A DNA stretch of 35,908 bases from a gamma proteobacterium symbiont of Ctena orbiculata (GTDB lineage: Bacteria; Pseudomonadota; Gammaproteobacteria; Chromatiales; Chromatiaceae). Under the pieces are notes generated by a model. The model saw only the letters and a program-made list of their open reading frames with translations, had not been told where the DNA came from and searched no databases. Of this stretch, positions 761-22,642 are shown piece by piece (positions within the stretch are counted from its first letter, which is position 1; every line of letters begins with the position of its first letter). Position numbers and translations under genes: made by a program. The DNA lies in contig NATV01000084.1 in the NCBI GenBank assembly GCA_003094535.1, positions 1 through 35,908 on the forward strand. The letters are read 5' to 3'.

Positions 761-1390
761 TCACTCTTTGGCGCTGCTCTTGCCGGCGGCGTTGTAAGGT
801 GCGCGGAAAGAGGCATCGCGATAGGAGACGCCGCGGGCCATCACGCTGGCACTGCGGTTGATGATGCGCTTGCGATAGATCTCGGAGATGGTATCCGAGT
901 CACCGGCCAACAGCGCCTTGGTGGAGCACATCTCGGCGCACAGCGGCAGCTTGCCCTCGGCGAGGCGGTTGGAGCCATACTTTCTGTGCTCGTCCGAGCT
1001 GTTGTCGGCCTCCGGTCCACCGGCGCAAAAGGTGCACTTGTCCATCTTACCGCGGGTGGCAAAGGCGCCATCCTCGGGAAATTGCGGCGCGCCGAAGGGA
1101 CAGGCGTAGAAGCAGTAGCCGCAACCGATGCAGATATCCTTGTCATGCAGGACAACCCCATCCTGGGTGGTGTAGAAACAGTCAACCGGGCAGACCGTGG
1201 CGCAGGGCGCGTCTGAACAGTGCATGCAGGCCACCGACAGGGAACGCTCGCCGTCGTCGCCATCGTTGATGGTCACCACCCGGCGGCGGTTGACGCCCCA
1301 TGGGACCTCGTTCTCGTTCTTGCAGGCGGTAACACATGCATTGCACTCGATACAACGTTCCGGATCGCAATAAAATTTCATTCGTGCCAT
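761..1390 (-). CDS. fdhB: Formate dehydrogenase beta subunit (4Fe-4S)
   Basis: Electron-transfer subunit carrying four [4Fe-4S] clusters between the catalytic and cytochrome subunits. The 209 residues contain four cysteine groups: C13/C16/C19/C23, C55/C58/C63/C67, C87/C90/C93/C97, and C119/C122 with C151/C155. It lacks the C-terminal membrane helix of the roughly 290-residue E. coli FdnH/FdoH type, so it is the short form that sits on a separate cytochrome b. The start MARMKFYCDPERC is preceded by an AGAGGA-type ribosome site. It lies 26 bases after fdhA and 29 before fdhC, consistent with one transcript. Confidence 0.95.
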   Translation of the reverse strand: MARMKFYCDPERCIECNACVTACKNENEVPWGVNRRRVVTINDGDDGERSLSVACMHCSDAPCATVCPVDCFYTTQDGVVLHDKDICIGCGYCFYACPFGAPQFPEDGAFATRGKMDKCTFCAGGPEADNSSDEHRKYGSNRLAEGKLPLCAEMCSTKALLAGDSDTISEIYRKRIINRSASVMARGVSYRDASFRAPYNAAGKSSAKE

Positions 1391-1416: not shown

Positions 1417-4311
1417 TTATGCCTTGCTGATGCGGCAGAGACTGCATTTTGTCTCCTGCATCTGCGTCACTGAGTCATAGCCATAGGTCATGGCCGTGTT
1501 ACAGGCTTCGCCCAGAACGTAGGGATCCGCCCCCTCCGGATATTTGCTGCGCAGATCCTTACCCAGGAAATGCCCGCCAAAGTGGAACGGCATGAAGGCG
1601 ACACCGGCGGCAACCCGTCGGGTCACCATCGCCTTGACCTTGATGCGGGCGCCCTCGGCGCCTTCCACCCAGACATCCTCGCCATCCCTCACCCCGGCAT
1701 TGTTGGCATCCCGCGGATGCATCTCGATGAACATATCCTGCTGCAGCTCCGCCAGCCAGGGATTGGAGCGGGACTCGTCGCCGCCGCCCTCGTACTCCAC
1801 CAGACGCCCCGAGGTGAGGATGATCGGAAAATCCTGGGAGTAGTCTTTGGCCTGGATCGAGCCGTAGCGGGTCGGCAGGCGATAGAAGGATTTGCGATCT
1901 TCGTAGGTGGGATACTTCTCCACCAGGTCGCGCCGATTGGTATAGAGCGGCTCGCGATGGATCGGCACCGGATCGGGGAAGGTCCAGACCAGGGCCCTTG
2001 CCTTGGCATTGCCGAAGGGTGCGCAACCATGCTTGATGGCGACCCGCTGGATGCCGCCGGAGCGGTCGGTCTTCCAGTTCTTGCCCTCCGCCAGCGCCTT
2101 CTCATCCGGGGTCAGATCATCCCACCAACCCAGTTTCTTCAACAGATCGGCGGTGAACTCCGGATGGCCGTCCTTGAGCTCGTTGCCGACCGGGTAGGAG
2201 CCCTCGGCCAGGAGGTTCTCGCCATTGCGTTCGACACCGAAGCGGGCGCGGAAGTTGAGGCCACCCTTGGCCACCGGCTTGCTGGTGTCGTAGAGATTGG
2301 GTGTGCCCGGATGGCCCATCTCCGGGGTGCCCCAGCAGGGCCAGGGCATACCGTAGTACTCGCCGTCGCAGGGACCGCCCTCCGCCAACAGGCTGGTATA
2401 ATCGAAGGTGCCCCAGTTCTGCTGCTGCTTCTTCATCCGCTCCGGGCTCTGGCCGGTATAACCGATGGTCCACATCCCGTTGTTGAACTCGCGGGTGATG
2501 TCCTCGATCAGGGGCTCGTCGTTTTCAACCTTGATGTTCTTGAACAGCTCGTTGGCGAAACCGAGTTTGCTCGCCAGGCGGTACATGATGGTATGGTCGG
2601 GCAGGGACTCGAAGACCGGCTCGATGACCTTGTCACGCCACTGCAGCGAGCGGTTGGAGGCGGTGACCGAGCCGTAGGTCTCGAACTGGGTTGCGGCGGG
2701 GAGCAGATAGACGCCGTCGGTCCTGTCGTGCATCACCGCGGAGACGGTGGGATAGGGATCGATGATCACCATCATGTCCAGCTTCTCCATCGCCTTCTTC
2801 ATCTCCTGGCCGCGGGTCTGGCTGTTGGGGGCGTGTCCCCACATCACCATCACCCGCAGATTGTCCTTCTGCGCGATATTCCCTTTCTCCTCCAGGACGC
2901 CGTCGATCCAGCGGGAGACCGGAATACCCTTGGTATGCATCGGCGAAACATCCTTGCCCTTGGACTGTTCGTAGCTGCCGGAATCGAAACGTCCGGCAAG
3001 CCAGTCCGCATCCACATCCCAGACCTTGGCCCAATGCCCCCAGGCACCCTTGGAGAGGCCGTAGTAACCCGGCAGGGTATGGGAGAGAACACCGAAGTCG
3101 GTGGCCCCCTGTACGTTGTCGTGGCCGCGGAAGATGTTGGTGCCGCCCCCGGACGCGCCCATATTGCCCAGGGCCAGCTGGAAGACGCAGTAGGCGCGGG
3201 TGTTGTTGTTGCCGATGGTGTGCTGGGTGCCCCCCATGCACCAGATGAAGGTGCCGGGGCGGTTGTCCGCCATGGTCTTGGCGGCGGCATAGATCTGGTT
3301 TTCCGGGACGCCGCTGACCCGCTCCACTTCGTCGGGGGTCCACTTGGCGATCTCCTTCTTCACCTCCTCCAGACCGTAGACCCGTTGCCGGATGAACTCC
3401 TTATCCTCCCAGCCGTTCTTGAAGATATGCCAGAGCATGCCCCAGATGACGGGTATATCGGTGCCCGGGCGCAGCCGCAGGAACTGATTGGCATGGGCGG
3501 CGGTGCGGGTGAAGCGCGGATCGATGACGATCAGCTGGGCGTTATTCTGCTCCTTGGCCTTGAACACATGCTGCAGCGAGACCGGATGGGCCTCCGCCGG
3601 GTTGCCGCCGATGATCAAGATCGACTTGGCGTTGTGGATATCATTGTAGGAGTTGGTCATGGCGCCGTAGCCCCAGGTGTTGGCGACGCCGGCGACCGTG
3701 GTGGAATGGCAGATGCGGGCCTGGTGGTCCACATTGTTGGTGCCCCAGAAGGCGGCGAACTTGCGGAACAGGTAGGCCTGCTCGTTGTTGTGCTTGGCCG
3801 ATCCCAGCCAGTAGACCGAATCGGGGCTCGACTGTTCACGCACCTCCAGCATCTTGTCGCCGATCTCGTTGATCGCCTGCTCCCAGGAGATCCGTTTCCA
3901 TTTACCGTCCACCAGCTTGGTGGGATATTTCAGCCGCCGCTCGCCATGCCCGTGTTCCCGCACCGAAGCGCCCTTGGCGCAGTGGGCGCCCAGGTTGAAG
4001 GGGTGATCGAAGGCCGGCTCCTGGCCTGTCCAGACACCGTTCTCGACCTCGGCGATGATGCCGCAGCCCACCGAACAGTGGGTGCAGATGGTCTTGATCT
4101 GTTTCGCCTCACCGCCTTCGGCTGTCGCCGCATTGGCCTTCTTCATCATTCCCGGCGCGAAGCCGCCGGCCAGCGCCGCACCGCCCGCTACCAGGCTGGA
4201 GTTGCGCAGAAAGTCGCGGCGGCTCATGGTCATTGCGCCGGGCGATCTCTCGGCTGGGTTCGATTGGCGACTGTTACCGCTTACCAGATCGGAGGTTTTT
4301 TGCAGTTTCAT
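1417..4311 (-). CDS. fdhA: Formate dehydrogenase catalytic (alpha) subunit, Tat-exported, cysteine form
   Basis: Molybdopterin (Mo or W bis-MGD) enzyme oxidising formate to CO2, probably in the periplasm. It has 964 residues. A twin-arginine signal (SRRDFLRN, residues 30-37) precedes a hydrophobic Ala/Gly stretch. A [4Fe-4S] site is formed by C76, C79, C83 and C111. The metal-ligand position in QARICHSTTVAG is Cys201; E. coli FdnG has selenocysteine at the equivalent place. No in-frame TGA is present, so no selenocysteine machinery is needed. Further family motifs follow, such as GGNPAEAHPVS. The ATG at 4311 has a GAGGA ribosome site. It is followed by fdhB and preceded by the small Tat protein gene. 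Confidence 0.96.
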   Translation of the reverse strand: MKLQKTSDLVSGNSRQSNPAERSPGAMTMSRRDFLRNSSLVAGGAALAGGFAPGMMKKANAATAEGGEAKQIKTICTHCSVGCGIIAEVENGVWTGQEPAFDHPFNLGAHCAKGASVREHGHGERRLKYPTKLVDGKWKRISWEQAINEIGDKMLEVREQSSPDSVYWLGSAKHNNEQAYLFRKFAAFWGTNNVDHQARICHSTTVAGVANTWGYGAMTNSYNDIHNAKSILIIGGNPAEAHPVSLQHVFKAKEQNNAQLIVIDPRFTRTAAHANQFLRLRPGTDIPVIWGMLWHIFKNGWEDKEFIRQRVYGLEEVKKEIAKWTPDEVERVSGVPENQIYAAAKTMADNRPGTFIWCMGGTQHTIGNNNTRAYCVFQLALGNMGASGGGTNIFRGHDNVQGATDFGVLSHTLPGYYGLSKGAWGHWAKVWDVDADWLAGRFDSGSYEQSKGKDVSPMHTKGIPVSRWIDGVLEEKGNIAQKDNLRVMVMWGHAPNSQTRGQEMKKAMEKLDMMVIIDPYPTVSAVMHDRTDGVYLLPAATQFETYGSVTASNRSLQWRDKVIEPVFESLPDHTIMYRLASKLGFANELFKNIKVENDEPLIEDITREFNNGMWTIGYTGQSPERMKKQQQNWGTFDYTSLLAEGGPCDGEYYGMPWPCWGTPEMGHPGTPNLYDTSKPVAKGGLNFRARFGVERNGENLLAEGSYPVGNELKDGHPEFTADLLKKLGWWDDLTPDEKALAEGKNWKTDRSGGIQRVAIKHGCAPFGNAKARALVWTFPDPVPIHREPLYTNRRDLVEKYPTYEDRKSFYRLPTRYGSIQAKDYSQDFPIILTSGRLVEYEGGGDESRSNPWLAELQQDMFIEMHPRDANNAGVRDGEDVWVEGAEGARIKVKAMVTRRVAAGVAFMPFHFGGHFLGKDLRSKYPEGADPYVLGEACNTAMTYGYDSVTQMQETKCSLCRISKA

Positions 4312-4663: not shown

Positions 4664-5329
4664 CTATACCGGCATGCTCAGGTAGCGTTTCTCCATCGCT
4701 GCGAAAGCGGCGCCGAAGCGCCCTACCGCGCGATAGAAGACCGCTGTTTTCGCCTCGCTCAAATCGGCGAAAAAGCGCTCCAGCCAACCAGCCATGTTAG
4801 ATTCGAAGAAGTGTGATTGACGCCCGAATTCGACCCCTTCAGTGATCAGCATCGCCATCACCTCGCACAGCGCGGCGACGTGATCCTCCGGTTCCGTGAC
4901 CCCCTCCTGGCGTTGAAAACCGAGCATCGCGAGATCGTCACGCAGGCGTCCCAGGGGCTTCTCCATGAGAAAACCGGTGAGATACCAGGAGCCGTAGGGC
5001 ACCAGCTCGCCGCGGCCCATGCCGATGAACAGATCGTGAAACTCGATCTCAACCGCATCCGGCCTTGAGTCGGAAGCGGAGAGGCCCAGCATCGACATCG
5101 CCAGGGCCATCTCGTCCCTGCTGGGCTCGATGGCTGCAAAGCCTGCCACCCGATCGAGCATCGTCTGATCCGGGGACTGTCTCAATAGATGAGCCAGCAT
5201 GCCGTAGGCACCTATCCGATAGTGCTGCTCCTCATCCAGGTCGACCGCCAAAGGCAGGTCCAAGGCCTCGGACAGCTTGCTGTCCGCGCACTCGTCATCA
5301 GTCTGGACAGCTTGGCTCATATCGCTCAT
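4664..5329 (-). CDS. TorD/DmsD-family maturation chaperone
   Basis: Cytoplasmic chaperone expected to bind the Tat signal of the molybdoenzyme and hold it until the cofactor is inserted. The 221-residue all-helical product carries family motifs: EFHDLFIGMGRGELVPYGSWY (about 97-117) and EPEDHVAALCEVMA (about 147-160). I chose the ATG at 5329 over the GTG one codon upstream because AGGAG lies 6-7 bases before the ATG. It lies inside the fdh operon, between the iron-sulfur protein and the small Tat protein, so FdhA is the likely client. Confidence 0.9.
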   Translation of the reverse strand: MSDMSQAVQTDDECADSKLSEALDLPLAVDLDEEQHYRIGAYGMLAHLLRQSPDQTMLDRVAGFAAIEPSRDEMALAMSMLGLSASDSRPDAVEIEFHDLFIGMGRGELVPYGSWYLTGFLMEKPLGRLRDDLAMLGFQRQEGVTEPEDHVAALCEVMAMLITEGVEFGRQSHFFESNMAGWLERFFADLSEAKTAVFYRAVGRFGAAFAAMEKRYLSMPV

Positions 5330-5523
5330 CACACTCTCCTCAATCGATCATAGGTGCAAACACCGGACCAGCTTTTACGGAAAAGAAATGACAAATAGGG
5401 CTGAATTCGACCAAACCCACCCTTTTCCGCGCCTGCGTCACCCTGTCCGAATGGCCGACTCTCCGCTGCCTCGCCCTGGCGATCATCGTCGGCCCTCTTC
5501 AAACAGTCGCTTCCAGTGCGGTA

Positions 5524-6714
5524 CTACTGTTGTAGGTGCCCATCCATATCCCCCCCCATGGCCTCCTGATCCTGCACGATATCGACAACCCGGCAGGCAT
5601 CGCAGAGGGTCAGGCGTTTCAATGCCCGCTCACTCTGGAACATGTAGTGATCCTTGAGCTTGCTGCGCATCTTTTCGATCACCGAGCGGGTAGCGAAGGG
5701 CTTGCCGCAGGCGGTACAGCGGAAGGGCTGCTCCTCGTGCAGGGTGCGCAGCCGGTTCCGGTTCTCGGTATCGAACAGCAGCCGCGGGGTAATCCAGATC
5801 GCATCCTCCGGGCAGGTGCGGGTGCAGAGACCGCATTGCAGACAGTTGGCCTCGATGAATCGAAGCTGGGGCAGTTCCCCGTCGCCACTCTGCAGCGCCT
5901 TGCCGGGACAGGCACCGACACAGGAGAGGCAGAGGGTGCAGGCCTTCTGCTCCACATAGACGGTGCCGAACGGCGCACCTGCGGAGAGGCTTGCCATCGG
6001 CTTGGCGCGCTCCGCCTGGGCAAAGAGATGATCGAGGGCGAAATAGATCGACTGCCGCTTGCCGCCGATCCCGGAATAGGCCGCCGCCGCGATCCCAGGC
6101 ATGGCCTCGCCCCCCTCTTGGATCAGGTTTTCAGGGTGCAGCAGCCTGATCGCCGTCAGGGGATAGCCCATTGCGTCGAGGATCTCACCCGCTATGGTCA
6201 ACTGCTCCCGCATGGCCTGGGCAACCCGTGGCGGCATCCCGCCGCCGTCCGCCAGCACCACCTGCCTGGCACCGTAGGCAAGTGCGCTCAGCCAGATATC
6301 CATGCCGACACTGGCCAGCTCCTCCACCGCCAGCGGCAGATAGTGGCCGGGGATCTCATCCGGCAGCGGGTCGTCCGATGCGGCGTGAAACACCACCACC
6401 GGAGATCTCCCGCCCTGCTCCCGATAGACCTGCAACAGCCTGCGCAGCCGTTGCAGACTATCCTTGACCGAGGGAAAGACATAGCGAATCGCTCCGCTGG
6501 GACAGACGCTGGCGCAGGCCCCCCCGCCCTGACAGAGATAGCTGTTGATTTCGATGGTTTCGCCCAGGCTGGTGATCGCATCGGCGGGACAGGCCTCGAG
6601 GCAGCGGGTGCAGGCACGCTTGCCCGAGCGGCCATGGGCGCAGATCGACGGATCGTAGTCGAAGTAGCGCGGTTTCTCGAAGGTGCCGGTCATCTGCGCA
6701 ACCTCTTCGATCAC
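5524..6714 (-). CDS. fdh-associated multi-cluster 4Fe-4S protein, C-terminal part after frameshift
   Basis: C-terminal 396 residues of an fdh-accessory iron-sulfur protein. Visible cysteine groups are C25/C35/C38/C42, C61/C67/C71, C259/C262/C265/C269 and C291/C294/C297/C301. Two CxxC pairs (C333/C336 and C371/C374) may form a zinc-ribbon-like end. The only start codon at the head is an internal GTG without a convincing ribosome site. The frame stays open upstream into residues GYYHSSGEEDQ, which should continue the 6711-7151 frame. Adding one C to the C8 tract at 6757-6764 gives one 542-residue protein, close to the roughly 550 residues I recall for this family. Either the gene is intact and the assembly has an error, or it is broken or phase-variable here. 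Confidence 0.85.
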   Translation of the reverse strand: MIEEVAQMTGTFEKPRYFDYDPSICAHGRSGKRACTRCLEACPADAITSLGETIEINSYLCQGGGACASVCPSGAIRYVFPSVKDSLQRLRRLLQVYREQGGRSPVVVFHAASDDPLPDEIPGHYLPLAVEELASVGMDIWLSALAYGARQVVLADGGGMPPRVAQAMREQLTIAGEILDAMGYPLTAIRLLHPENLIQEGGEAMPGIAAAAYSGIGGKRQSIYFALDHLFAQAERAKPMASLSAGAPFGTVYVEQKACTLCLSCVGACPGKALQSGDGELPQLRFIEANCLQCGLCTRTCPEDAIWITPRLLFDTENRNRLRTLHEEQPFRCTACGKPFATRSVIEKMRSKLKDHYMFQSERALKRLTLCDACRVVDIVQDQEAMGGDMDGHLQQ

Positions 6715-7151
6715 CGCTGCGATCTGATCCTCCTCGCCGCTGCTGTGGTAGTAACCGGGGGGGGCATGCCCCGATCCACCAGGGGTTGCGGCGACAGATC
6801 GAGAATCAGATCCACGGCGAGGGTTTCGGCATTGGCGCGTCCCGTTTCGCCGAGCGCTATCCTGAAGGCGCCGAGATAGCCCTCGATGCGTATTTCGCGC
6901 CCACCCAGGGGCACCACCGGGGCGCCCGGCTCCTCGGCACCCTGGGTCAGGACGACGATCGGACTGAGCCGGTCGTTGAGCCGCGGTGCGATCTCCTGTG
7001 CCAGTTGATCGCCGATCACCGCGATCCTGCCACGGGATTGGTAGTTCACCAGGCTGGTCGGTTCCACGGTCACCGCCTGCATCGCATGCAGCGCCTGCTC
7101 CCGCGCCTTGCGGTTGAGCATCGCTTCCGGTGTCGTTATCGAATCACTCAT
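6711..7151 (-). CDS. fdh-associated 4Fe-4S protein, N-terminal part, ends in C8 frameshift
   Basis: N-terminal part of the protein described at 5524-6714. The first about 131 residues (MSDSITTPEAM to about VDRGMPPP) form the cysteine-free N-terminal domain of that family, with SRGRIAVIGDQ and LDLSP segments. After the C8 tract the frame reads nonsense (VTTTAAARRIRSQR) and stops at 6711, whereas homologues continue PPPGYY. The ATG overlaps the stop of the DUF3306 gene by four bases, showing translational coupling and confirming this start. As written the gene would give a truncated product without any iron-sulfur cluster. Confidence 0.85.
   Translation of the reverse strand: MSDSITTPEAMLNRKAREQALHAMQAVTVEPTSLVNYQSRGRIAVIGDQLAQEIAPRLNDRLSPIVVLTQGAEEPGAPVVPLGGREIRIEGYLGAFRIALGETGRANAETLAVDLILDLSPQPLVDRGMPPPVTTTAAARRIRSQR
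6757..6764 (-). other. C8 homopolymer causing the frame break
   Basis: A run of eight C on the coding strand (eight G as given), directly after an ATG codon. The upstream frame reads Pro-Pro-Pro-Val. The downstream frame, which encodes all the cysteine clusters, needs nine C to read Pro-Pro-Pro-Gly-Tyr-Tyr. It could be a sequencing error, a slippage-prone contingency tract or a transcriptional slippage site. Confidence 0.85.
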
Positions 7152-7687
7152 GTTTCTGCCTCGTCGCTTGGGTTGGCCTCCTCTTCAGCATCGGCTGGGG
7201 ATACCTGCTCATCCGCCGCATCGGCATCCGCACTCTGCGCCAGCCTGTCGTCAGTCTCTTCATCATCTTCTTCGAGCCCATGATCCCTGGCCTCCTCCCC
7301 GCGCGCCTGCTCACGCTTCGCCTCCTGCTCAAGCCTGTGACGCAGATCCGCCGTCATCACATCACCGAGTTTTTCAAAGCTGGTGAAGTCCTCGGCGTAG
7401 TCATCCAGACCGTCACAGACATTGAATGCCGCACTCTGGAACAGCTTGCGCAAGGCCAGTTGGCGCAGCCCATCGGATACCCGCGGGGAGAGAAAACCGC
7501 TGTAGTCGGCGTTTTCGTCCAGGCTCTCCAACGGCGGCATATCCTCATCACCGGGTAGCTTGTCCTCAACGACCGCCTCTTGCTGTTCCACCGGCGCTTG
7601 CCGGGATGCCTGCTTTCTCTCCGACCAGCGATCGTAGAAGCTGCCGCTCTGCTCAGCGATGGTCTCCGGTGAATCCTCAGATTTCAT
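7148..7687 (-). CDS. DUF3306 protein, formate dehydrogenase accessory
   Basis: 179 residues from the ATG at 7687, the start that gives the family N-terminus (SFYDRWSERK near residues 14-23). The conserved core is MPPLESLDENADYSGFL and LRQLALRKLFQSAAFNVCDG, followed by DDYAEDF; this is the DUF3306 pattern found beside respiratory fdh operons. The last about 60 residues are a highly acidic Glu/Asp/Ala tail with no predicted fold. The biochemical role is unknown. It starts one base after the DUF3305 stop and overlaps the next gene by four bases. An open frame extends upstream to 7969, but that part lies inside the DUF3305 gene and is not real. Confidence 0.88.
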   Translation of the reverse strand: MKSEDSPETIAEQSGSFYDRWSERKQASRQAPVEQQEAVVEDKLPGDEDMPPLESLDENADYSGFLSPRVSDGLRQLALRKLFQSAAFNVCDGLDDYAEDFTSFEKLGDVMTADLRHRLEQEAKREQARGEEARDHGLEEDDEETDDRLAQSADADAADEQVSPADAEEEANPSDEAET

Positions 7688-7688
7688 G

Positions 7689-8207
7689 TCACTGCGGCCT
7701 CTGCTGCGACGATTTCCAATCGGCGCGCTTGCGTTTGCTGCGCTTCTTCGGGGTGTAGTGCTCGAGGACAAAGGCCTCTGTCCAACGATAGAGCTCGGCG
7801 GGCATGGGTACCGTGTAGACTGTTTCATCCCCCTCCAGGTAGGCATGGGCCTCGTCGTAACTGAGGCTGACCAGGAAGGGTTCGGGCTTGCCCTGATCAT
7901 CCAGGTTCGCCACCACGTAGCAGTGGGGCTGGGGCGAAAGCAGATTGTAGTAGTAGCTTTCACACTCATCCCGGTGCAGCTTGAGGGTGAAACCGGAATA
8001 GAGAAAACGGGCGATCACTCCTTTCCGATGGATCTGGCTGGACTTCGCATCGCTCTCCCGCAACGTCTCCCCCGCGGCAATCAGGCCCACCGCCTCCCAG
8101 CTGTTCTCCAGCCAGGGCGAGTCGCTGGGCGACTGCTGCATGATCACGGAAACATTGAATTTTGAAGGGTTATCATCCCCTACCCGGTGATTATTCGCTG
8201 TCGTCAT
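7689..8207 (-). CDS. DUF3305 protein, formate dehydrogenase accessory
   Basis: First gene of the fdh operon, 172 residues from the ATG at 8207. Its features are an early NVSVIMQQSPSDSPWLENSWE segment (split here as NVSVIMQQ and SPWLENSWEAVGL), a central RFLYSGFTLKLHRDECESYY, and a basic tail (KKRSKRKRADWK). This matches the DUF3305 family, which regularly pairs with DUF3306 in this type of fdh cluster; function unknown. The open frame extends to 8291, but the ATG at 8207 is better because the sigma-54-like promoter at 8243-8258 would start transcription near 8231. It is tightly coupled to DUF3306. Confidence 0.87.
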   Translation of the reverse strand: MTTANNHRVGDDNPSKFNVSVIMQQSPSDSPWLENSWEAVGLIAAGETLRESDAKSSQIHRKGVIARFLYSGFTLKLHRDECESYYYNLLSPQPHCYVVANLDDQGKPEPFLVSLSYDEAHAYLEGDETVYTVPMPAELYRWTEAFVLEHYTPKKRSKRKRADWKSSQQRPQ

Positions 8208-8242
8208 GGTTTCAGACCCTGAAGATATTCGAACCTGGTACC

Positions 8243-8258
8243 GCAAGTTGCATACCAA
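8243..8258 (-). promoter_or_regulatory. Candidate sigma-54 promoter of the fdh operon
   Basis: On the minus strand the site reads TTGGTATGCAACTTGC. Against the -24/-12 consensus TTGGCACGNNNNTTGC it differs at two positions and keeps the essential GG-N10-GC spacing. Transcription would start near 8231, about 25 bases before the DUF3305 ATG, with AGGG as a weak ribosome site. The half-site cluster at 8339-8403 would lie about 108-172 bases upstream, normal for an NtrC-type activator. Confidence 0.6.
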
Positions 8259-8338
8259 TTGGGCAATTGGGCAGAAAAGTCGCCAAAGCATCGCGTCGGG
8301 AAAATAATCCGTAAATCGGCAAGGGGGAAAATCAGGGC

Positions 8339-8403
8339 AAAATGTCCCGTTCGGTGTCAGTGAGGTGGGACATTTCTGACCAGTTGTCTCACTCTCGGGT
8401 CAT
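8339..8403. promoter_or_regulatory. Cluster of TGTCYC half-sites, candidate activator-binding region
   Basis: A perfect 9-base inverted repeat, AAATGTCCC (8340-8348) and GGGACATTT (8367-8375) with an 18-base spacer, is followed by a third related half-site, TTGTCTCAC (8384-8392). The segment GACCAGTTGTCTCAC (8378-8392) recurs with one mismatch at 20861-20875 upstream of the tup operon. The cluster sits between two divergent sigma-54-like promoters, so it may be a shared enhancer. No protein in the window is proven to bind it. Confidence 0.5.
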
Positions 8404-8616
8404 CCAGCAAGGGGAATTCAAGCTACGACGAGATGCCGGCACGCCGCGGGGCAGACCTTCCATAGTCAGGATTGTGGGTGGTGCGATTCAACACGGCAGC
8501 CGCACAGCCGGCCTCCAGGCCCCGTCTTCCAAGGCAACTGCCACGACGGCGCGCACACTTGGCCAATGAGGAACCCGGGCAGTCCATCGGCGGGAGAGCG
8601 ACCGGGTTTAATCCGT

Positions 8617-8632
8617 TAGGTACGGTATTTGC
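8617..8632 (+). promoter_or_regulatory. Candidate sigma-54 promoter of moaA-fdhD
   Basis: Reads TAGGTACGGTATTTGC, keeping GG-N10-GC and matching TTGGCACGNNNNTTGC except at two positions. Transcription would begin near 8643-8644, which excludes the upstream TTG start of moaA and supports the GTG at 8668. Confidence 0.55.
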
Positions 8633-8667
8633 GTAAGGATCCTGAGACAACCCTTGAGAGAGCGAGC

Positions 8668-9696: not shown

Positions 9697-10581
9697 ATGC
9701 AGGCAGCAGACGAAAAACAGCGTCCATTGATGTCCGATGCGGGGCTCAGCGCCGCGGTGGAGGCGGTTGCCATCGACGAGTATGGCGAGGTCAGGGATGG
9801 CCATGTGGCCGCGGAACGGGCGCTGACCCTCTATCTGGACAAAAAGGAACTGGTAACCCTGATGACCCTGGGCACCCGACCGGAGATGCTGGTGCTGGGG
9901 TGGCTGCGCAATCAACGACTGGTGGAGCGTATCGATCAGATCAAGGCGATTCAGGTCGACTGGGAGACTGACTCCGTCGCCGTCACCACCCACCGGGGCG
10001 TGGAGGGACTCGAGGAGAAGATGGCGCGCAAGACCGTCACCACCGGCTGCGGCCAGGGAACGGTGTTCGGTGATCTGATGGACGACCTGGAAAGAATCGA
10101 ACTGCCGCGGCGGGGGATACGTCAATCGGAGATCTACGCCCTGTTGCAGACACTGAACGAGCATAACCAGGTCTACCAGCGGGCGGGAGCCGTACACGGC
10201 TGTGCCCTCTGTAGCGAGGGCGAGATCCACTCCTTCATCGAGGATGTGGGCCGGCACAACGCCGTCGACGCCATCGCCGGCCAGATGTGGCTCGAGGGGA
10301 TGGACGGCGGCGACAAGATCTTCTACACCACCGGCAGGCTCACCTCGGAGATGGTGATCAAGGTCGCGCAGATGGGAGTCCCGATCCTGCTCTCCCGCTC
10401 GGGGATCACACAGATGGGGTTGGAGCTGGCGAAAAAGGTCGGCGTCACCCTCATCGCCCGCGCCAAGGGCAGACACTTCCTGGTCTACAACGGTGCGGAA
10501 CAGGTCAGTTTCGATGCGGTGCCGAAGCCGCATCCGCAGGGTTCGGGATCACGACATGTCAGTCGGATCAAAAGCCGATAA
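9697..10581 (+). CDS. fdhD: Formate dehydrogenase accessory sulfurtransferase FdhD
   Basis: Transfers sulfur from a cysteine desulfurase to the molybdenum cofactor before insertion into formate dehydrogenase. It has 294 residues, and the catalytic CxxC is C169-A-L-C172 in GAVHGCALCSEGEI. EDVGRHNAVD follows and TTGCGQG lies near 116-122; all are hallmarks of the family. It lies nine bases after moaA and 12 before the regulator gene, so it is likely cotranscribed. A later in-frame ATG (residue 12) could also serve as the start. Confidence 0.96.
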   Translation: MQAADEKQRPLMSDAGLSAAVEAVAIDEYGEVRDGHVAAERALTLYLDKKELVTLMTLGTRPEMLVLGWLRNQRLVERIDQIKAIQVDWETDSVAVTTHRGVEGLEEKMARKTVTTGCGQGTVFGDLMDDLERIELPRRGIRQSEIYALLQTLNEHNQVYQRAGAVHGCALCSEGEIHSFIEDVGRHNAVDAIAGQMWLEGMDGGDKIFYTTGRLTSEMVIKVAQMGVPILLSRSGITQMGLELAKKVGVTLIARAKGRHFLVYNGAEQVSFDAVPKPHPQGSGSRHVSRIKSR

Positions 10582-10593
10582 GGGAGGCTAGTG

Positions 10594-11508
10594 ATGGTTG
10601 CGGTGATGTCCCAGGATCAACATGTCTTCATGAACGTCAAGCAGGTGGCGGAGTATCTCCATCTCAACGAGAAAAAAATCTACGCCCTGGTCAACGAGGA
10701 GCGGATTCCGGCGACCAAGATCACCGGCAAGTGGCTCTTCCCGAGAGAGCTGGTCGATCGCTGGATGCTCGACTCCGCCCATGGCGGGCTGATGACCAAC
10801 CGGCTGGTGATCGCCGGCAGCGACGATCCCCTGCTCTACCGTCTGATCATGACCTTCGCCGACGAGACCGGCTCACATGCCCTGATCAGCTACTCCCCGA
10901 CGGGAACCCGGCTGGGCCTGGAACTGCTGCAGGCCAACCGCATCGATGCCTGCGGCATCCACTGGGGCCCCAACGAGGAGAGCCATACCCGCCACCCCGC
11001 GCTGCTGCGCCAATACCCCCAGTATCGCCAATGGGTGTTGATACGCCTGTTCCGCCGCGAGCAGGGATTGATGGTAAGCCGCAAGATGGAGCAGCGCATG
11101 CTGCAGCCGGAGCATCTCTTCGATCACGAGTTCCGCTGGACCATGCGCCAGAGCGGTGCCGGTGCGCAGCGTTTCCTGCTCGAGGTGTTGAGCAACTACG
11201 GCACCAGTGCGGAAAAACTGAACACAGTCGGCACCGCCCTGTCGGAGCGCGAGGCCGCCGCCAGCATCGCCATGGATCATGCGGACGTGGCCCCGGGTGC
11301 CCGCGCCGCCGCCAACGAATATGGCCTTGCCTTCATCCCCTTCGGCTGGGAATCCTTCGATCTGACGCTGCCCCGCAGCATCTGGTTCCGGCGCCTGTTT
11401 CAGGACCTCATCGGACGCCTGCGCTCATCCGAATGCAACGCCATGGCGAAACAGCTGACCGGCTATGACCTGCGTGAGGCGGGAGAACTTGTCTGGGGAG
11501 ACGAGTGA
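10594..11508 (+). CDS. HTH regulator with substrate-binding (PBP-like) domain
   Basis: One-component regulator of 304 residues. The N-terminal region (about 12-60: VFMNVKQVAEYLHLNEKKIY) is an excisionase/MerR-like helix-turn-helix. The rest resembles the periplasmic-binding-protein-like domain (PF12727 type) found in regulators near molybdoenzyme genes. It probably senses an oxyanion such as molybdate or tungstate, or a related ligand, though the ligand is not readable here. The ATG at 10594 is preferred over the GTG at 10591, with GGGAGG six bases upstream. It closes the moaA-fdhD transcript, so it may feed cofactor or metal status back onto this locus. Confidence 0.85.
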   Translation: MVAVMSQDQHVFMNVKQVAEYLHLNEKKIYALVNEERIPATKITGKWLFPRELVDRWMLDSAHGGLMTNRLVIAGSDDPLLYRLIMTFADETGSHALISYSPTGTRLGLELLQANRIDACGIHWGPNEESHTRHPALLRQYPQYRQWVLIRLFRREQGLMVSRKMEQRMLQPEHLFDHEFRWTMRQSGAGAQRFLLEVLSNYGTSAEKLNTVGTALSEREAAASIAMDHADVAPGARAAANEYGLAFIPFGWESFDLTLPRSIWFRRLFQDLIGRLRSSECNAMAKQLTGYDLREAGELVWGDE

Positions 11509-17197: not shown

Positions 17198-19318
17198 TCA
17201 GGCTCGCATCTTGTTATCTCCAACCGCCAACTCCGGCTCAACCGAGTGAAACTGCTCCATCAAGGCCGCCTCATCTTCCGTTAAGTCGGGTTCCTCAAGC
17301 AGCCAGACGCTGAACAGCGAACCCCGGCCCGGATCGGAGCGGACGCTGATATCGCCGCCATATTTTTTTATCAGCCCGTAGCTCACCGACAGGCCCAAGC
17401 CGGTGCCCTCCCCGACCCGCTTGCTGGTATGGAAGGGATCGAAGATCGATTCGATCTGCTGCTCATCGATACCCACACCGTTATCCTCCACCTCGATCAC
17501 CACCCCTTTCTCGTCCCAGTCGGAGGTGGCCAGGGAGATAGTGCCTCCCTGCTTGTCCAGGGCGTGCACGGCATTGACGAAAAGATTGACCAGGACCTGC
17601 TGCAATTCGTGGGGATTGATCTTGATCGGCCGCGCTGCCTTCAGTTCCAGCGAAATTTCGAACTGTTTCTGTTTGCGCAGATGGCGCACCAGGGCCAGGG
17701 TGTGCTGCACCACCTCGTTGACATCGATCGCCGATGGCGTCTCGGTAATCTGGTCGGGTCGCGCATACTGCAACAGGTTGTTGATGATATCCTTGATGCG
17801 AAAGATCTGTTCGATGATCAGATCGATCTCGTTCTTCACCGGCGCCGCGCTGTCGCCCAACTCCGCGACCAGCAGGTCGAGATTGCCCAGCATCACGGCA
17901 GTGGGATTGTTGATTTCATGGGCCACGCCGGCGGTGAGTTCACCCAGCGCCGCAAGCTTCTCGGCGGCGATCAGCTGGGCCCGGGTTTCACGCAGGATCT
18001 GAATGGTGGTCAACAGCTTCTCATTCTTCTGCTTCAGTTCCGCGGTACGCTCATCCACCTTCTCTTCCAGTTGATCGGCCCACTGCTGAACCTGGAGATT
18101 GCGCTCCTGCAGCAGATCGAGCAGAAGATCGAACTCGTTCGCCAGGACGCCGATCTCATCCACGGACGAGATTCTGCCGATGCGCTTGGTATAGCCTTCC
18201 CGGGTCGCACGTACCACCGCCATCATCATCTCGAGGGGCTTGAAGATCGATTTCGCGCCGCTGATGGAGAGTATCGACGAGAACAGCATCAGGGCCAGAA
18301 ACAGCAGGATCAACACCCCCAGCGCCTGCCACAGGGCATTCCGCGAGGGGGATTCCAGGAAACCGGCATAGAGCATACCGACCCGTTCACCGCTGACATC
18401 GATTATCGGCTGATAGGCCGAGATGTACCAGTCGTTGACGACGAAGGCACGATCGATCCATTTCTCGCCGTGATCCAACACCTGGGTCCGGACCTCGTCG
18501 GAGACCCGGGTACCCAATGCCCGCTGATTGGGCGTACGCGGTACATTGGTGGTAATCCTCACATCGTCGAGAAAGACCGTGACCGTTCCGATACTCCCCT
18601 TGGGCAGGCTGCCCGGGCCGTAGACCAGGTCGCGTATGGTATCGACGAACTTGAAATTACCGTTCAACAACACCCCGCCATCGAGCAATGCAATCACCTG
18701 GCCGCGGGAGTTCTTGACCGGATAGAGGGCGCGAATCATCATGCCGCGATTCTCGACACGACGCTGGGTGGGCCTCGCCCGGGGTGTATCCAACAGCGGC
18801 AGTTCGACCTGTTTGGCCAATCCGTAGGCTTGTTGTTCCAGCGCATCGGCACTGAAGATCTCGATCTCCACCCTGGGCTGTCCCTGCAGCGCGACCAGCA
18901 GCGAGGGTGAGGGATGTCCCCGTTTTTCGACTTCGCCATGGGGGAGGAAGAGGCGTTTTGCATCGGTCCCGAGCAGATGCAGATAACTGAAACCGGTCGA
19001 TCTGCGCAGCGTATCCAGCTGCTCGTTGATGGCAAGACCGCTTCTCGATTCGAGGGCGGTGTAGAAGACGTGCGACTCGGCAAGCCGCCCCAGGGTATTC
19101 AGATAGTCTTCCTGCAGACGATGAAAGTTATCCTCCGCCACCGAGAGATCGGTGTTGACCTTGATAAAGAGCTGCTCGTAACTGAATTCGGATCCCCAGT
19201 AGATGGCCAGCGCCAGTGCGATGGGCATGATCAGGAGAATCGGGAACAGCACCAGGACCAACAGCTTATAGCGTAAGCTGCTGCGGATGGCCTGGATGAA
19301 GCTGAGTAGTGGATTCAA
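17198..19318 (-). CDS. Membrane sensor histidine kinase (Cache-like, HAMP, HisKA, HATPase)
   Basis: 706 residues. Transmembrane helices lie near 18-41 and 328-352, enclosing a roughly 285-residue periplasmic sensor domain of the Cache type (with SYLHLLGTDAKRLFLPHG). HAMP (about 353-405) and a coiled coil (406-450) lead to the H-box LGELTAGVAHEINNPTAV with phosphoacceptor His467. N box VNLFVNAVHAL (576-586), G1 EDNGVGI (611-617) and G2 GEGTGLGLSVSYG (636-648) complete an intact kinase. It lies 25 bases after the NtrC-type regulator and should phosphorylate it. The ligand is unknown; Cache domains often bind small carboxylates, so formate is an attractive guess only. Confidence 0.92.
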   Translation of the reverse strand: MNPLLSFIQAIRSSLRYKLLVLVLFPILLIMPIALALAIYWGSEFSYEQLFIKVNTDLSVAEDNFHRLQEDYLNTLGRLAESHVFYTALESRSGLAINEQLDTLRRSTGFSYLHLLGTDAKRLFLPHGEVEKRGHPSPSLLVALQGQPRVEIEIFSADALEQQAYGLAKQVELPLLDTPRARPTQRRVENRGMMIRALYPVKNSRGQVIALLDGGVLLNGNFKFVDTIRDLVYGPGSLPKGSIGTVTVFLDDVRITTNVPRTPNQRALGTRVSDEVRTQVLDHGEKWIDRAFVVNDWYISAYQPIIDVSGERVGMLYAGFLESPSRNALWQALGVLILLFLALMLFSSILSISGAKSIFKPLEMMMAVVRATREGYTKRIGRISSVDEIGVLANEFDLLLDLLQERNLQVQQWADQLEEKVDERTAELKQKNEKLLTTIQILRETRAQLIAAEKLAALGELTAGVAHEINNPTAVMLGNLDLLVAELGDSAAPVKNEIDLIIEQIFRIKDIINNLLQYARPDQITETPSAIDVNEVVQHTLALVRHLRKQKQFEISLELKAARPIKINPHELQQVLVNLFVNAVHALDKQGGTISLATSDWDEKGVVIEVEDNGVGIDEQQIESIFDPFHTSKRVGEGTGLGLSVSYGLIKKYGGDISVRSDPGRGSLFSVWLLEEPDLTEDEAALMEQFHSVEPELAVGDNKMRA

Positions 19319-19343: not shown

Positions 19344-20756
19344 CTAGTTGACACCCCAGGCCTGGGTCTTGCGCTCCAAAGTCTTGCGCGAGATGCCAAG
19401 CACACGGGCCGCCGCCGACTTGTTGCCGCCCTCGAGGTCGAGCACCTTGAGAATATGCTGTTTCTCTATCGCCTCCAGCAACAGGGTCTTGGAGGGGTCG
19501 AAAGGCGCCGATTGAGCGCCCACGGCCTCCGACCCCATCATGCAGAGGCTGGGAGACTTGTTGAGCAGCAGGCAGCGCTCGATCACGTTTTTCAGTTCAC
19601 GCACATTGCCTGGCCAGTCATAGTCCAGCAGTCTGACCAGATCGGCCTCCCCCATCTGCGGCGGGGTGATGCCCAGCTCCGCGGAGAGGGTCTCGACAAA
19701 GTGCTTCACCAACAGGGGAATATCCTCCTTGCGTTCACGCAGTGCGGGTATGCGCAGAGAGAGGACGTTCAAGCGATAGTAGAGATCTTCACGAAAATCA
19801 CCGCCACGCACCACCTGTTCAAGATCACGATTGCTGGCGGCAATGATGCGCACATCCACCGGCACCTCGCGGTTTGAACCGACGGGACGGATGGTCCTCT
19901 CTTCCAAGGAGCGCAGCAGATGGGCCTGCATGCTCAACGGCATCTCGCCGATCTCATCGAGAAAGAGGGTGCCGCCATTGGCGTAGGTGAAGAGACCGTC
20001 ACGGGAGAGATGGGCGCCGGTAAAGGCCCCCTTGACATGGCCGAACAGCTCGCTTTCCAGCAGCTCGGCGGTCATGGCGCCGCAGTTGACCGGGACAAAG
20101 CTGCCCGCTCTGCCGCTCATCTCGTGTATCGCCCTGGCCGCAAGCTCCTTTCCGGTACCCGATTCGCCTTCGATCAATACCGTTGAGGGCATCGGGGCGA
20201 CCCGCTTGATCACGCCGCAGAGGGTCTTCATCTGTTGGCATTGACCCACCATCCCCGAGCTGTCATAGATCTGCTCCACCTGTCGGCGCAGCACGAAGTT
20301 CTCACGCTGCATCTTCTGCCGTTCGAGATAGCGCTCCACCGCCGCGATCATCTGCTCCATGCGAAACGGCTTGAGAATGAAATCCTCGGCCCCCGCGCGC
20401 AGTGCGGCGATCGCCGTCTCCATGTCGGCATGGGCGGTCATGAAGATAACCCCGGTGACGCCTCCCTGCTCCCGCAACTCCCTTACCCACTCCACACCGC
20501 CGACCTGGCCGGGAAGCCGGATATCGGTAATAATGAGATCGAAATGGCAGTGCTGTCTCAGCTCTTCGGCGGTGACGACATCCTCGGCGGTCTCCACCAA
20601 GCCAAAATATTTACGCAATCCCTTCTGCAGAAAGCTGCGTATTCCCGGCTCGTCATCCACGATGAGAACGGACGCCATGCGGACCGGTGCTCCGTCCTTG
20701 ATGAATGGCTGTCTACTCTCGATCCTCTCCTCGAGTTCTTCTGCTTTTATATTCAT
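19344..20756 (-). CDS. NtrC-type sigma-54-dependent response regulator
   Basis: 470 residues. The receiver domain (27-145) has VDDE (33-36), phosphoacceptor Asp78 (ITDIRLPG), Thr107 (MTAHAD) and Lys129 (LKPF). The AAA+ domain has Walker A GESGTGKE (197-204), the sigma-54 contact loop GAFTGA (243-248) and GGTLFLDEIGE (261-271). A Fis-type HTH follows (SAAARVLGISRKTLERK). All elements for sigma-54 activation are intact. A start at the inner ATG (MASVLIVDDE, residue 27) is possible. It precedes its kinase and is divergent from tupA, whose promoter is sigma-54 type, so tup is the obvious target. Confidence 0.94.
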   Translation of the reverse strand: MNIKAEELEERIESRQPFIKDGAPVRMASVLIVDDEPGIRSFLQKGLRKYFGLVETAEDVVTAEELRQHCHFDLIITDIRLPGQVGGVEWVRELREQGGVTGVIFMTAHADMETAIAALRAGAEDFILKPFRMEQMIAAVERYLERQKMQRENFVLRRQVEQIYDSSGMVGQCQQMKTLCGVIKRVAPMPSTVLIEGESGTGKELAARAIHEMSGRAGSFVPVNCGAMTAELLESELFGHVKGAFTGAHLSRDGLFTYANGGTLFLDEIGEMPLSMQAHLLRSLEERTIRPVGSNREVPVDVRIIAASNRDLEQVVRGGDFREDLYYRLNVLSLRIPALRERKEDIPLLVKHFVETLSAELGITPPQMGEADLVRLLDYDWPGNVRELKNVIERCLLLNKSPSLCMMGSEAVGAQSAPFDPSKTLLLEAIEKQHILKVLDLEGGNKSAAARVLGISRKTLERKTQAWGVN

Positions 20757-20860
20757 CGGTATTTGTTCCAGTCTTCAAGCTGTTTCCTGCCTGAATCCGG
20801 TACTGCACGATCAGGCCCGATTGTGGGTCAAAATGACTAAACCGCCCGCAGCCGGTTTGC

Positions 20861-20875
20861 GACCATTTGTCTCAC
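20861..20875. promoter_or_regulatory. Candidate activator site upstream of the tup operon
   Basis: GACCATTTGTCTCAC matches GACCAGTTGTCTCAC at 8378-8392 at 14 of 15 positions. It lies about 175-190 bases before the predicted tupA transcription start and about 105 bases before the regulator gene. Only one half-site of the type is clear here; GTCAAAATGAC (20827-20837) is a nearby separate palindrome. Confidence 0.45.
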
Positions 20876-21022: not shown

Positions 21023-21038
21023 TGGCACTTCTTTTGCA
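21023..21038 (+). promoter_or_regulatory. Consensus sigma-54 promoter of the tup-mob-moe operon
   Basis: TGGCAC (21023-21028), five bases, TTGCA (21034-21038): an exact match to the -24/-12 consensus. Transcription would start near 21049, about 32 bases before the tupA ATG at 21081, leaving room for the GAGG ribosome site. Confidence 0.85.
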
Positions 21039-21080: not shown

Positions 21081-21941
21081 ATGTTTAGCCGTATATTTTT
21101 GTATTTTGCCCGTTTTCTTGCCGTTGCCATGCTGTTAACTATTGGCACCAGCCATGCGGAAACTGTTCAAAAACAGACCATCCGTTTGGCAACGACAACC
21201 AGTACCGACAACTCCGGCCTGCTGGCCGATCTGCTGCCGGCCTTCACCGAAGCCACGGGCTACCCCGTTCACGTCATCGCCGTGGGAACGGGCAAGGCGT
21301 TGCGCATGGGGAGAGACGGCGATGTGGATCTGGTCCTGGTGCACGCCCGTGCCGCGGAAGATAAATTTGTCGCCGAAGGCCATGGGGTGAAACGCTTCGG
21401 TGTGATGTACAACGACTTCGTCCTGATCGGCCCCGCCGAGGACCCCGCCGGCATTGCCAATACCGAGGACGTCGTATCGGCGTTGGAAGCCATTGCCCGG
21501 CAACAGGCAAGTTTCATCTCCCGCGGGGACGACTCCGGTACCCACAAGAAAGAGCTCGGACTCTGGAAAAAGAGCGCGATCAAGCCCGAGGGGGATTGGT
21601 ATCGCGAAGTGGGCCAGGGTATGGGCAAGGTGATTCAGATCGCCTCCGAGATGGAAGCCTACACCCTGACCGACAGGGGAACATGGCTTGCCTATCGGAA
21701 GAAATCCCCGCTGCAGATCCGCTTCGAGGGAGACCCCCTGCTGTTCAACCCCTACGGCATTATCGCGGTAAGCCCGAAACGCTATCCCGATATCAATCAC
21801 CAGGGTGCCAATGCCCTGATCAAATGGATGATATCCCCCCAGGGCCAGGAGCGAATCGGCAACTTCAGGATCGGCGACAACAGACTCTTCACCCCTTCAG
21901 CCGATGCCGGGGAGTTTGCCTCCTTCAAGCCTAACCACTGA
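21081..21941 (+). CDS. tupA: TupA-like tungstate/molybdate-binding protein
   Basis: Periplasmic solute-binding protein of 286 residues. The signal peptide (1-26) ends SHA. The family motif ATTTSTDNSGLL (37-48) forms part of the oxyanion site, and GDVDLVLVHARAAED, SRGDDSGTHKKE and YTLTDRGTW follow, all typical of TupA. TupA proteins usually prefer tungstate, but specificity between tungstate and molybdate cannot be settled from sequence. Its TGA overlaps the tupB ATG by one base. Confidence 0.93.
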   Translation: MFSRIFLYFARFLAVAMLLTIGTSHAETVQKQTIRLATTTSTDNSGLLADLLPAFTEATGYPVHVIAVGTGKALRMGRDGDVDLVLVHARAAEDKFVAEGHGVKRFGVMYNDFVLIGPAEDPAGIANTEDVVSALEAIARQQASFISRGDDSGTHKKELGLWKKSAIKPEGDWYREVGQGMGKVIQIASEMEAYTLTDRGTWLAYRKKSPLQIRFEGDPLLFNPYGIIAVSPKRYPDINHQGANALIKWMISPQGQERIGNFRIGDNRLFTPSADAGEFASFKPNH

Positions 21942-22642
21942 TGGAATCACTCAGCGACACCACCCTGGCGGCACTACACCTCCTGTTCAGCGGCAACCGG
22001 GAGCTGTGGGAGATTATCGCCATATCCTTTCGCGTCTCCGGTGTCGCCATCCTGGTGGCGACGCCGCCGGCACTGATGGTGGCGTTTATTCTTACCTACA
22101 AACGCTTTCCCGGCCGTCGTCTGCTGATCTCTATAAACTCGACGTTTCTCTCGATACCGGCGGTGGTGGTGGGACTGACCTTTTTTATCCTGCTCTCGAG
22201 GCAGGGACCCCTGGGGGAGTGGAAACTGCTGTTCACCCAGACCGCGATGGTACTTGGCCAGATAACGCTCGCCTTTCCGATCCTGGTGGCGATGGGACAT
22301 TCGGCACTGCAGGCCTCCGATATTCGTGCCTGGGAGACGGCCCGCACCCTGGGCGCGAATCCGCTGCGGGCGCTTTTCACCGTGATGCGCGAGGCACGTT
22401 TCGGACTGATGGCGGCACTCCTCGCCGCCTTCGGCCGCATCATCGCCGAAGTCGGTGCATCGATGATGCTCGGAGGCAATATCCTCCACTATACGCGCAA
22501 TATACCCACCGCAATCGCTCTGGAATCGAGCAAGGGCGAATTCGCCCAGGGAATCGCCCTGGGTCTGGTATTATTGACCCTTGCATTCTCACTCAACGCC
22601 CTGCTGCAACATATTCAGGGCAAGGGGCAGCCGGCCACATGA
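21941..22642 (+). CDS. tupB: TupB-like ABC transporter permease
   Basis: 233-residue inner-membrane permease with about five or six hydrophobic helices. The ATPase-contacting EAA-type loop is WETARTLGANPLRALFTVMR (about 130-149), followed by AAFGRIIAEVGASMMLGGNI, highly typical of tungstate-type permeases. It is coupled to tupA (TGATG junction) and to tupC (four-base overlap). Confidence 0.93.
   Translation: MESLSDTTLAALHLLFSGNRELWEIIAISFRVSGVAILVATPPALMVAFILTYKRFPGRRLLISINSTFLSIPAVVVGLTFFILLSRQGPLGEWKLLFTQTAMVLGQITLAFPILVAMGHSALQASDIRAWETARTLGANPLRALFTVMREARFGLMAALLAAFGRIIAEVGASMMLGGNILHYTRNIPTAIALESSKGEFAQGIALGLVLLTLAFSLNALLQHIQGKGQPAT

Follow-up and report, generated by a model that had tools for sequence, protein, structure and literature searches.

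A predicted bidirectional sigma-54 control region between a formate dehydrogenase operon and moaA-fdhD-regP in a Ctena orbiculata symbiont

The region at positions 8208-8667 of the window (the whole stretch of DNA analysed here, 35,908 nucleotides in length) is likely to be a bidirectional sigma-54 control region, the shared enhancer of a dedicated sigma-54 two-component regulon for a Mo/W formate dehydrogenase. It separates an FDH3-type formate dehydrogenase operon from the divergently transcribed genes moaA-fdhD-regP. An earlier note, made from the sequence alone, had reported a sigma-54 promoter facing each way around a cluster of half-sites; this observation is confirmed, and the arrangement is strongly conserved. 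The interpretation offered there, that one enhancer drives the enzyme operon together with its cofactor and sulfuration genes, is supported by comparison of sequences among relatives, from which we infer that a single enhancer serves both sides.

Gene layout, sigma-54 sites and dyads

Its nearest named relatives, a MAG of a Ctena orbiculata symbiont and several members of Candidatus Thiodiazotropha, place the window in or next to that genus. The formate dehydrogenase cluster (Table 1) is of the FDH3 type, with a beta subunit that scores above the NCBIfam FDH3 cut-off (NF038355) and with neighbouring DUF3305 and DUF3306 genes (PF11749, PF11748). That these two families adjoin fdh genes is already on record in excerpts of the literature (PMC4464133). 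The ATG at 8207, taken as the start of DUF3305, is common to most relatives. The one-component regulator regP, with its HTH_17 and PBP_like domains, resembles regulators of the molybdate/tungstate type. Farther along the window, the genes for a sensor kinase and a response regulator are divergent from a tup-mob-moeA operon. Because its TupA score stays under the equivalog cut-off, the transporter is called only TupA-like and is assigned no metal; its permease and ATPase are apparently fused in one 485-aa open reading frame (21904-23361), with a Pfam match for the ATPase part only. Nothing reached the gathering threshold in an Rfam scan of the whole window, which gives no support to a known structured RNA leader.

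Table 1. Coordinates of genes and predicted control elements in the window
Feature	Position	Strand	Remarks
FDH3 beta subunit (fdhB)	761..1390	-	NF038355 340 bits, cut-off 240
Formate dehydrogenase catalytic subunit (fdhA)	1417..4311	-	PF00384/PF01568/PF04879; TIGR01591 468 bits, under 666 cut-off
TorD/NarJ-family chaperone gene	4664..5332	-	PF02613
Internal sigma-54 site before torD-fdhAB	5355..5370	-	score 9.5
Possible dyad before torD	5434..5450		score 12
4Fe-4S protein gene, fdh cluster	5524..6714	-	
146-aa gene, no family match	6711..7151	-	stays in cluster in most loci compared
DUF3306 gene	7148..7969	-	PF11748
DUF3305 gene, first in fdh operon	7689..8207	-	PF11749 1.5e-38 on longer ORF; start chosen by conservation
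Predicted sigma-54 promoter TTGGTATGCAACTTGC into DUF3305-fdhAB operon	8258-8243	-	score 10 of 12
Genus-conserved block around GGAAAATAATCC	8299..8312		between dyad I and fdh promoter; many invariant columns in 19 Thiodiazotropha loci
Dyad I CAGGGCAAAATGTCCCG, predicted activator site	8333..8349		score 10 of 14
Dyad II TGGGACATTTCTGACCA, predicted activator site	8366..8382		starts 33 bp after dyad I; score 10 of 14
Possible dyad III TCTGACCAGTTGTCTCA	8375..8391		overlaps dyad II, contains third half-site; score 11 of 14
Predicted sigma-54 promoter TAGGTACGGTATTTGC into moaA-fdhD-regP	8617-8632	+	score 9.5
moaA	8668..9687	+	TIGR02666 377 bits, cut-off 284; GTG start 8668
fdhD	9697..10581	+	PF02634; TIGR00129 132 bits, slightly under 141 cut-off
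regP, HTH_17 + PBP_like one-component regulator	10591..11508	+	PF12728, PF12727
Cache-domain sensor kinase, proposed partner of the regulator	17198..19318	-	PF17202, PF00512, PF02518
NtrC-type response regulator, proposed activator	19344..20756	-	PF00072, PF00158, PF02954; proposed on co-occurrence and HTH
Dyad TGGGTCAAAATGACTAA before tup operon	20824..20840		score 13; reached in 0 of 2000 gap shuffles
Dyad TGCGACCATTTGTCTCA before tup operon	20858..20874		score 12
Sigma-54 site TGGCACTTCTTTTGCA into tupA-tupBC-mobA-mobB-moeA	21023..21038	+	score 10
tupA-like, fused permease/ATPase, mobA, mobB, moeA operon	21081..25760	+	TupA 245 bits, cut-off 400

Sigma-54 promoters have the consensus GG-N10-GC at -24/-12, close to TGGCACG-N4-TTGC. 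The two sites proposed earlier for the ends of the region lie exactly where they had been placed, one on each strand, and both fit this pattern. Given the usual distance from -12 to +1, the predicted transcription start points are near 8231 and 8644, in each case about 24 nt ahead of the plausible start codons ATG 8207 (DUF3305) and GTG 8668 (moaA). When the region was shuffled 2000 times, 0.05% of the shuffles had a site scoring at least 9.5 on each strand; over the whole window, sites of such score show no clear excess (6 seen, 4.2 expected). The genome has one rpoN match (PF04552, 8.1e-70) and 21 strong matches to sigma-54 activators.

Between the two sites the earlier note had described a perfect inverted repeat, AAATGTCCC at 8340-8348 and GGGACATTT at 8367-8375, and a third half-site, TTGTCTCAC at 8384-8392. 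The repeat is correctly positioned, but its arms make more sense as the inner halves of two neighbouring 17-bp dyads (I and II). A single inverted repeat as the operator was ruled out by the conserved left flank GGGCAAAATGTCCCG and by the 17-bp dyads of other lineages. The third half-site is present in the window but not conserved in an alignment of 19 Thiodiazotropha loci, and the same holds for the possible dyad III that contains it; a half-site resembling the third one, TTTGTCTCA, occurs at tup.

By themselves these motifs prove little, and it is conservation that lends them weight. A dyad score of 10 turns up somewhere in 64% of region shuffles, and two score-10 dyads at 30-33 bp in 1.0%; since a score of 10 of 14 is so easily reached, dyads I and II of the window rest on conservation. 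Set against its reversed control, the short pattern TGTCCC-N16-20-GRGACA proves no rarer in the genome (1 place for the pattern, 6 and 4 matches for the control). Of 56 genomes, 18 contain a longer pattern, AATGTCCC-N14-22-GRGACATTT; they all belong to the one genus, and the pattern stands at one place per genome beside DUF3305 and at one extra place in G001, with 1 hit overall for the reversed control. A genome-wide dyad scan for more regulon members, allowing up to three mismatches, was uninformative: it showed no excess, with 966 places for the dyad and 1129 for its reversed control.

Conservation within and beyond the genus

DUF3305 occurs in 27 of the 56 genomes searched, that of the window counted. 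A sigma-54 site scoring at least 9 faces DUF3305 at all 27 loci, and 21 of the 27 have a sigma-54 site each way, again with the window counted. The six loci without sites both ways are one interrupted by other DNA (L035), one at a contig edge (L037) and four without a score-9 site (L041, L043, L045, L047); on the moaA side of L035, the other DNA, which carries a short ORF, breaks in after the enhancer. moaA is present on 21 of the 27 fetched pieces, and L029, L044 and L046, which have no moaA on the fetched piece, retain the outward sigma-54 site. Most columns that are invariant across the 19 aligned Thiodiazotropha loci coincide with the two sigma-54 sites, GGGCAAAATGTCCCG, stretches within TGGGACA and ACCA, or an additional block near 8299-8312. 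The distance from promoter to promoter ranges from 153 to 691 bp over 20 measured loci. At the upper extreme (L028), extra repeat-like DNA lies between the enhancer and moaA, and both promoters and the paired arms are retained.

For the wider comparisons, a unit was defined as a sigma-54 site scoring at least 9 together with a dyad scoring at least 11 before DUF3305. Within the genus and family, only 14 of 25 genomes have the unit by this rule, since a score of 10 is common among the dyads of the genus.

The element shared across lineages is a 17-bp dyad, TGGGWCA-N3-TGWCCCA, perfectly palindromic in some cases, such as L128 (TGGGACATAATGTCCCA) and L174 (TGGGTCATTCTGACCCA). This consensus was derived after viewing the genus loci as well as L041, L043-L047 and L070-L076, and was scored on a test set of 107 loci (L089-L195), from which 17 Thiodiazotropha were left out and 10 redundant loci and 1 short locus dropped. 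The remainder comprised 53 loci at which moaA, fdhD or regP lies divergently within 800 bp and 26 where none does; L170, one of the 53, was too short, leaving 52 scored. Among these 52 nonredundant divergent loci, 48 have an fdh-side sigma-54 site (at least 9), 46 a partner-side site (at least 8.5) and 45 a dyad (at least 11). Both sigma-54 sites flank the dyad in the right order at 37 of the 52, as opposed to a rate of 0.0001 in shuffles (200 per locus), and 36 of 50 loci have all three elements once L112 and L162, which are like loci viewed while the consensus was drawn, are taken out. Sigma-54 promoters on either side of a group of activator sites, as found at those 37 loci, constitute the shared divergent enhancer layout known from hycA/hypA.

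A motif-free count of 7-mers points to the same elements: its top four consist of sigma-54 halves, TGGGACA (second) and TGGGTCA (fourth), of which TGGGACA occurs in 14 of 51 regions (1.9 expected) and TGGGTCA in 14 (2.03 expected). The genus-conserved block at 8299-8312 is absent from the 25 top 7-mers outside the genus. When pairs of dyads with a summed score of at least 22 were sought at 21-49 bp outside the genus, 27 of 31 proved to be spaced 30-33 bp, so that paired dyads there are helically phased; the pair in the window has a spacing of 33 bp but is weak by score.

The earlier note had staked its reading on conservation of the GG/GC pairs and half-sites among relatives, and that reading withstood the comparison, given the sites both ways at 21 of 27 loci, all elements at 37 of 52 loci outside the genus and the invariant columns on the sites. 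The same evidence bears on the possibility that the sites are chance matches to the consensus and that transcription starts from sigma-70 promoters. Matches of such score are indeed common over the window, and one weak sigma-70-like hit was seen at 8280-8308 (0.4 expected), but the conservation and order of the elements and the position of the invariant columns make this explanation highly improbable. It also has against it that, of six nonredundant loci where moaA is farther than 2 kb, not one combines all three elements before DUF3305; because the two sigma-54 sites and a dyad do not occur together there, control at such loci is probably different. A DUF3305-fdh cluster with a distant moaA (more than 2 kb) was seen in gammaproteobacterial MAGs or symbionts (L141, L143, L146, L149, L158 and L161, also L144, L150 and L156). 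Of the 26 loci at which no divergent partner lies close by, several retain a promoter and dyad.

Alternatively, the two promoters could stand back to back and be regulated independently, with the dyads serving only the nearer fdh promoter. The geometry of the window would allow it, as its dyads lie about 85-117 bp from the fdh promoter and 245-277 bp from the moaA promoter, and so would that of L028 with its widely separated promoters. Yet the sigma-54 sites are only 153-247 bp apart at 11 of 20 paired loci, a dyad lies between them at 37 of 52 loci outside the genus, and the pairing is retained when the divergent partner changes. Moreover, a sigma-54 promoter requires an activator, and this applies to one that faces moaA, fdhD or regP. 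We consider independent regulation decidedly unlikely and favour the shared enhancer.

The candidate activator and its other predicted targets

The response regulator encoded at 19344-20756, which the earlier note had singled out for footprinting, emerges as the best candidate for the protein that would bind the dyads: its orthologue accompanies the DUF3305 cluster, and between its gene and tupA the same dyad is found in a stronger form. It has AAA+ and Fis-type HTH domains (PF00158, PF02954). With orthologues defined by at least 53% identity (next best matches are 46% identical), 27 of the 56 relatives have both DUF3305 and the regulator, 0 have DUF3305 only, 1 has the regulator only (G029, 88% complete) and 28 have neither. 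The Fisher p of 7.6e-15 for this co-occurrence is overstated, with 22 of the 56 genomes belonging to one genus; linkage and shared descent explain part of it, because the genes are often neighbours and the genomes so related. The recognition helix RKTL[ED]RK is found in most regulator orthologues and in 0 of 19 paralogues examined in the same genome; the paralogue L008 has RKTL in its recognition helix. VC1522 of V. cholerae may be the same regulator.

In a sample of the class, DUF3305 was found in 46 of 369 genomes, of which 44 were searched for the regulator (G000 and G009 were left out; G043 and G048 belong to both sets). A match at 1e-110 was present in 23 of the 44, the weakest best match being 48% identical. 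The unit was called in 14 of the 23 genomes with the regulator versus 4 of the 21 without (p 0.0065), a looser link than among the 56 relatives. One genome, G333, has a fragment of the regulator at the contig edge of its cluster, and counting it changes the numbers to 15 of 24 with and 3 of 20 without. The other three genomes with the unit and no match to the regulator, G132, G241 and G359, remain exceptions. Nine genomes have the regulator but no unit (G101, G127, G141, G247, G291, G336, G338, G344 and G386); in G127, G247 and G338, a sigma-54 site and dyad stand near torD instead.

These exceptions matter for a further possibility, that the promoters do depend on sigma-54 but the dyads are bound by regP or by another NtrC-type activator of the genome. 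The gene for regP lies in the divergent operon and was found at 1e-30 in 27 of the 44 DUF3305-bearing genomes of the class; the genome encodes about 20 further sigma-54 activators, L008 with its shared RKTL helix among them; and G132 and G359 possess dyads and regP with no clear orthologue of the regulator. On the other hand, G048, G095 and G318 retain the regulator and the dyads while regP is absent or only distantly similar, which weakens regP as the dyad binder, and G241 has dyads with neither protein, though its genome is 87% complete. The conservation of the recognition helix in most orthologues and the presence of a dyad next to the regulator gene at all 27 tup loci also speak for the regulator at 19344-20756, and we regard a different dyad-binding protein as unlikely.

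The result at tup comes from loci at which a regulator at least 50% identical has a divergent tupA within 900 bp (44 rows, reduced to 27 nonredundant loci, 9 in the genus and 18 outside it). The gap between the two genes contains a sigma-54 site of at least 9 and a dyad of at least 11 at every one of the 27, against a shuffle rate of 0.0076. Three of the 18 loci outside the genus had been viewed earlier (L071, L073, L074), and the site of L206 is weak.

A second possible target lies inside the fdh operon, before torD. Among 42 nonredundant gaps between the 4Fe-4S gene and torD, the window counted, a sigma-54 site of at least 9 occurs in 32, a dyad of at least 11 in 16 and both together in 10 (0.0012 in shuffles); L236, L237 and L241 have no unit before DUF3305 but a site and dyad near the torD start. 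In the torD-fdhA gaps, which served as a negative control, 1 of 44 nonredundant gaps had both site and dyad, compared with a rate of 0.0041 in shuffles. Control of torD by the regulator is uncertain, because site and dyad occur together in only 10 of 42 gaps. The regulon is predicted to extend beyond the fdh and moaA sides to the tup operon, and perhaps to torD-fdhAB too.

Related systems and a proposed mechanism

The NtrC enhancer at glnA consists of 17-bp dyads with a 3-bp centre, in paired sites about three helical turns apart, and its half-site is TGCACCA. Dyads of the type seen in the window share the length, the centre and the pairing with it but have the half-site TGGGWCA, and the regulon here is predicted to be a dedicated one. 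In E. coli, FhlA, a formate-binding activator without a receiver domain, has sites at hycA<>hypA that serve both sides; its system differs from that of the window in enzyme and operator. The hycA<>hypA region is tabulated as a divergent RpoN region and resembles the region studied here in that enzyme and maturation operons stand back to back under sigma-54, as far as the available part of that source goes (PMC8743547).

The Vibrio fdh cluster VP1510-VP1515 is similar to that of the window by gene description, with an Fe-S protein, a chaperone and FDH subunits. According to excerpts of its source, expression of this cluster changes by log2 -3.2 to -4.8 without rpoN, -24/-12 sites are predicted before VP1508 and VP1510, the VP1510 promoter showed no shift with purified RpoN, and ChIP-seq in V. 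cholerae is cited for control of the formate dehydrogenase cluster in Vibrio by RpoN (PMC9817140). Unlike for the window, these excerpts describe no activator, operator or divergent enhancer and make no molybdate link, the string 'molybd' having 0 occurrences in the text (PMC9817140). In Geobacter sulfurreducens, an RpoN promoter precedes GSU0777-0781, an fdnG operon with fdhD; in contrast to the window this is a single operon with a different FDH, and the part of the source available describes no shared divergent enhancer (PMC2725144). In excerpts of a survey of predicted sigma-54 regulons, formate dehydrogenases account for 32% of a group with 176 members (PMC12316311). Passages of three papers describe formate oxidation in Thiodiazotropha (PMC6712303, PMC11171427, PMC12172469).

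The suggestion in the earlier note that such an arrangement is new for this kind of fdh cluster has to be softened, as RpoN control of the related Vibrio cluster (PMC9817140) and a divergent RpoN region for enzyme and maturation genes in E. coli (PMC8743547) are already known from the portions of these sources at hand. Among the open-licence papers searched, we found none that brings together an activator, an operator, a divergent enhancer and tungstate uptake in connection with this cluster.

We propose that the phosphorylated response regulator, probably fed by the adjacent Cache-domain kinase, would bind dyads I and II, about three helical turns apart, and assemble there. The bound regulator would contact RNA polymerase-sigma-54 at the fdh promoter, about 85-117 bp from dyad centres to -24, and likewise, presumably through looping of the DNA, at the moaA promoter, about 245-277 bp away; both distances are in the usual range for sigma-54 enhancers. 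In this way the FDH3 operon and moaA-fdhD-regP would be turned on together, and the tup-mob-moeA operon would be turned on through the same kind of dyad. The signal may be formate or Mo/W status, both of which are guesses.

In its broadest form, to which we give about an even chance, this is a dedicated two-component sigma-54 regulon widespread in FDH3-carrying Gammaproteobacteria, in which one signal and one operator would govern the enzyme, cofactor synthesis, sulfuration and tungstate/molybdate uptake, with the region as a two-way enhancer and the HTH-PBP protein as a metal-sensing feedback regulator. Metal uptake, cofactor synthesis and the enzyme are predicted to be made together. For a common respiratory formate dehydrogenase, the control of which in Vibrio is known only as RpoN-dependent in the excerpts seen (PMC9817140), the analysis offers a concrete operator, a promoter set and a candidate activator. 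The region provides a specific target for identifying the signal sensed by the Cache-domain kinase, and the proposed regulon bears on formate use by clam symbionts as well as on laboratory expression of these enzymes.
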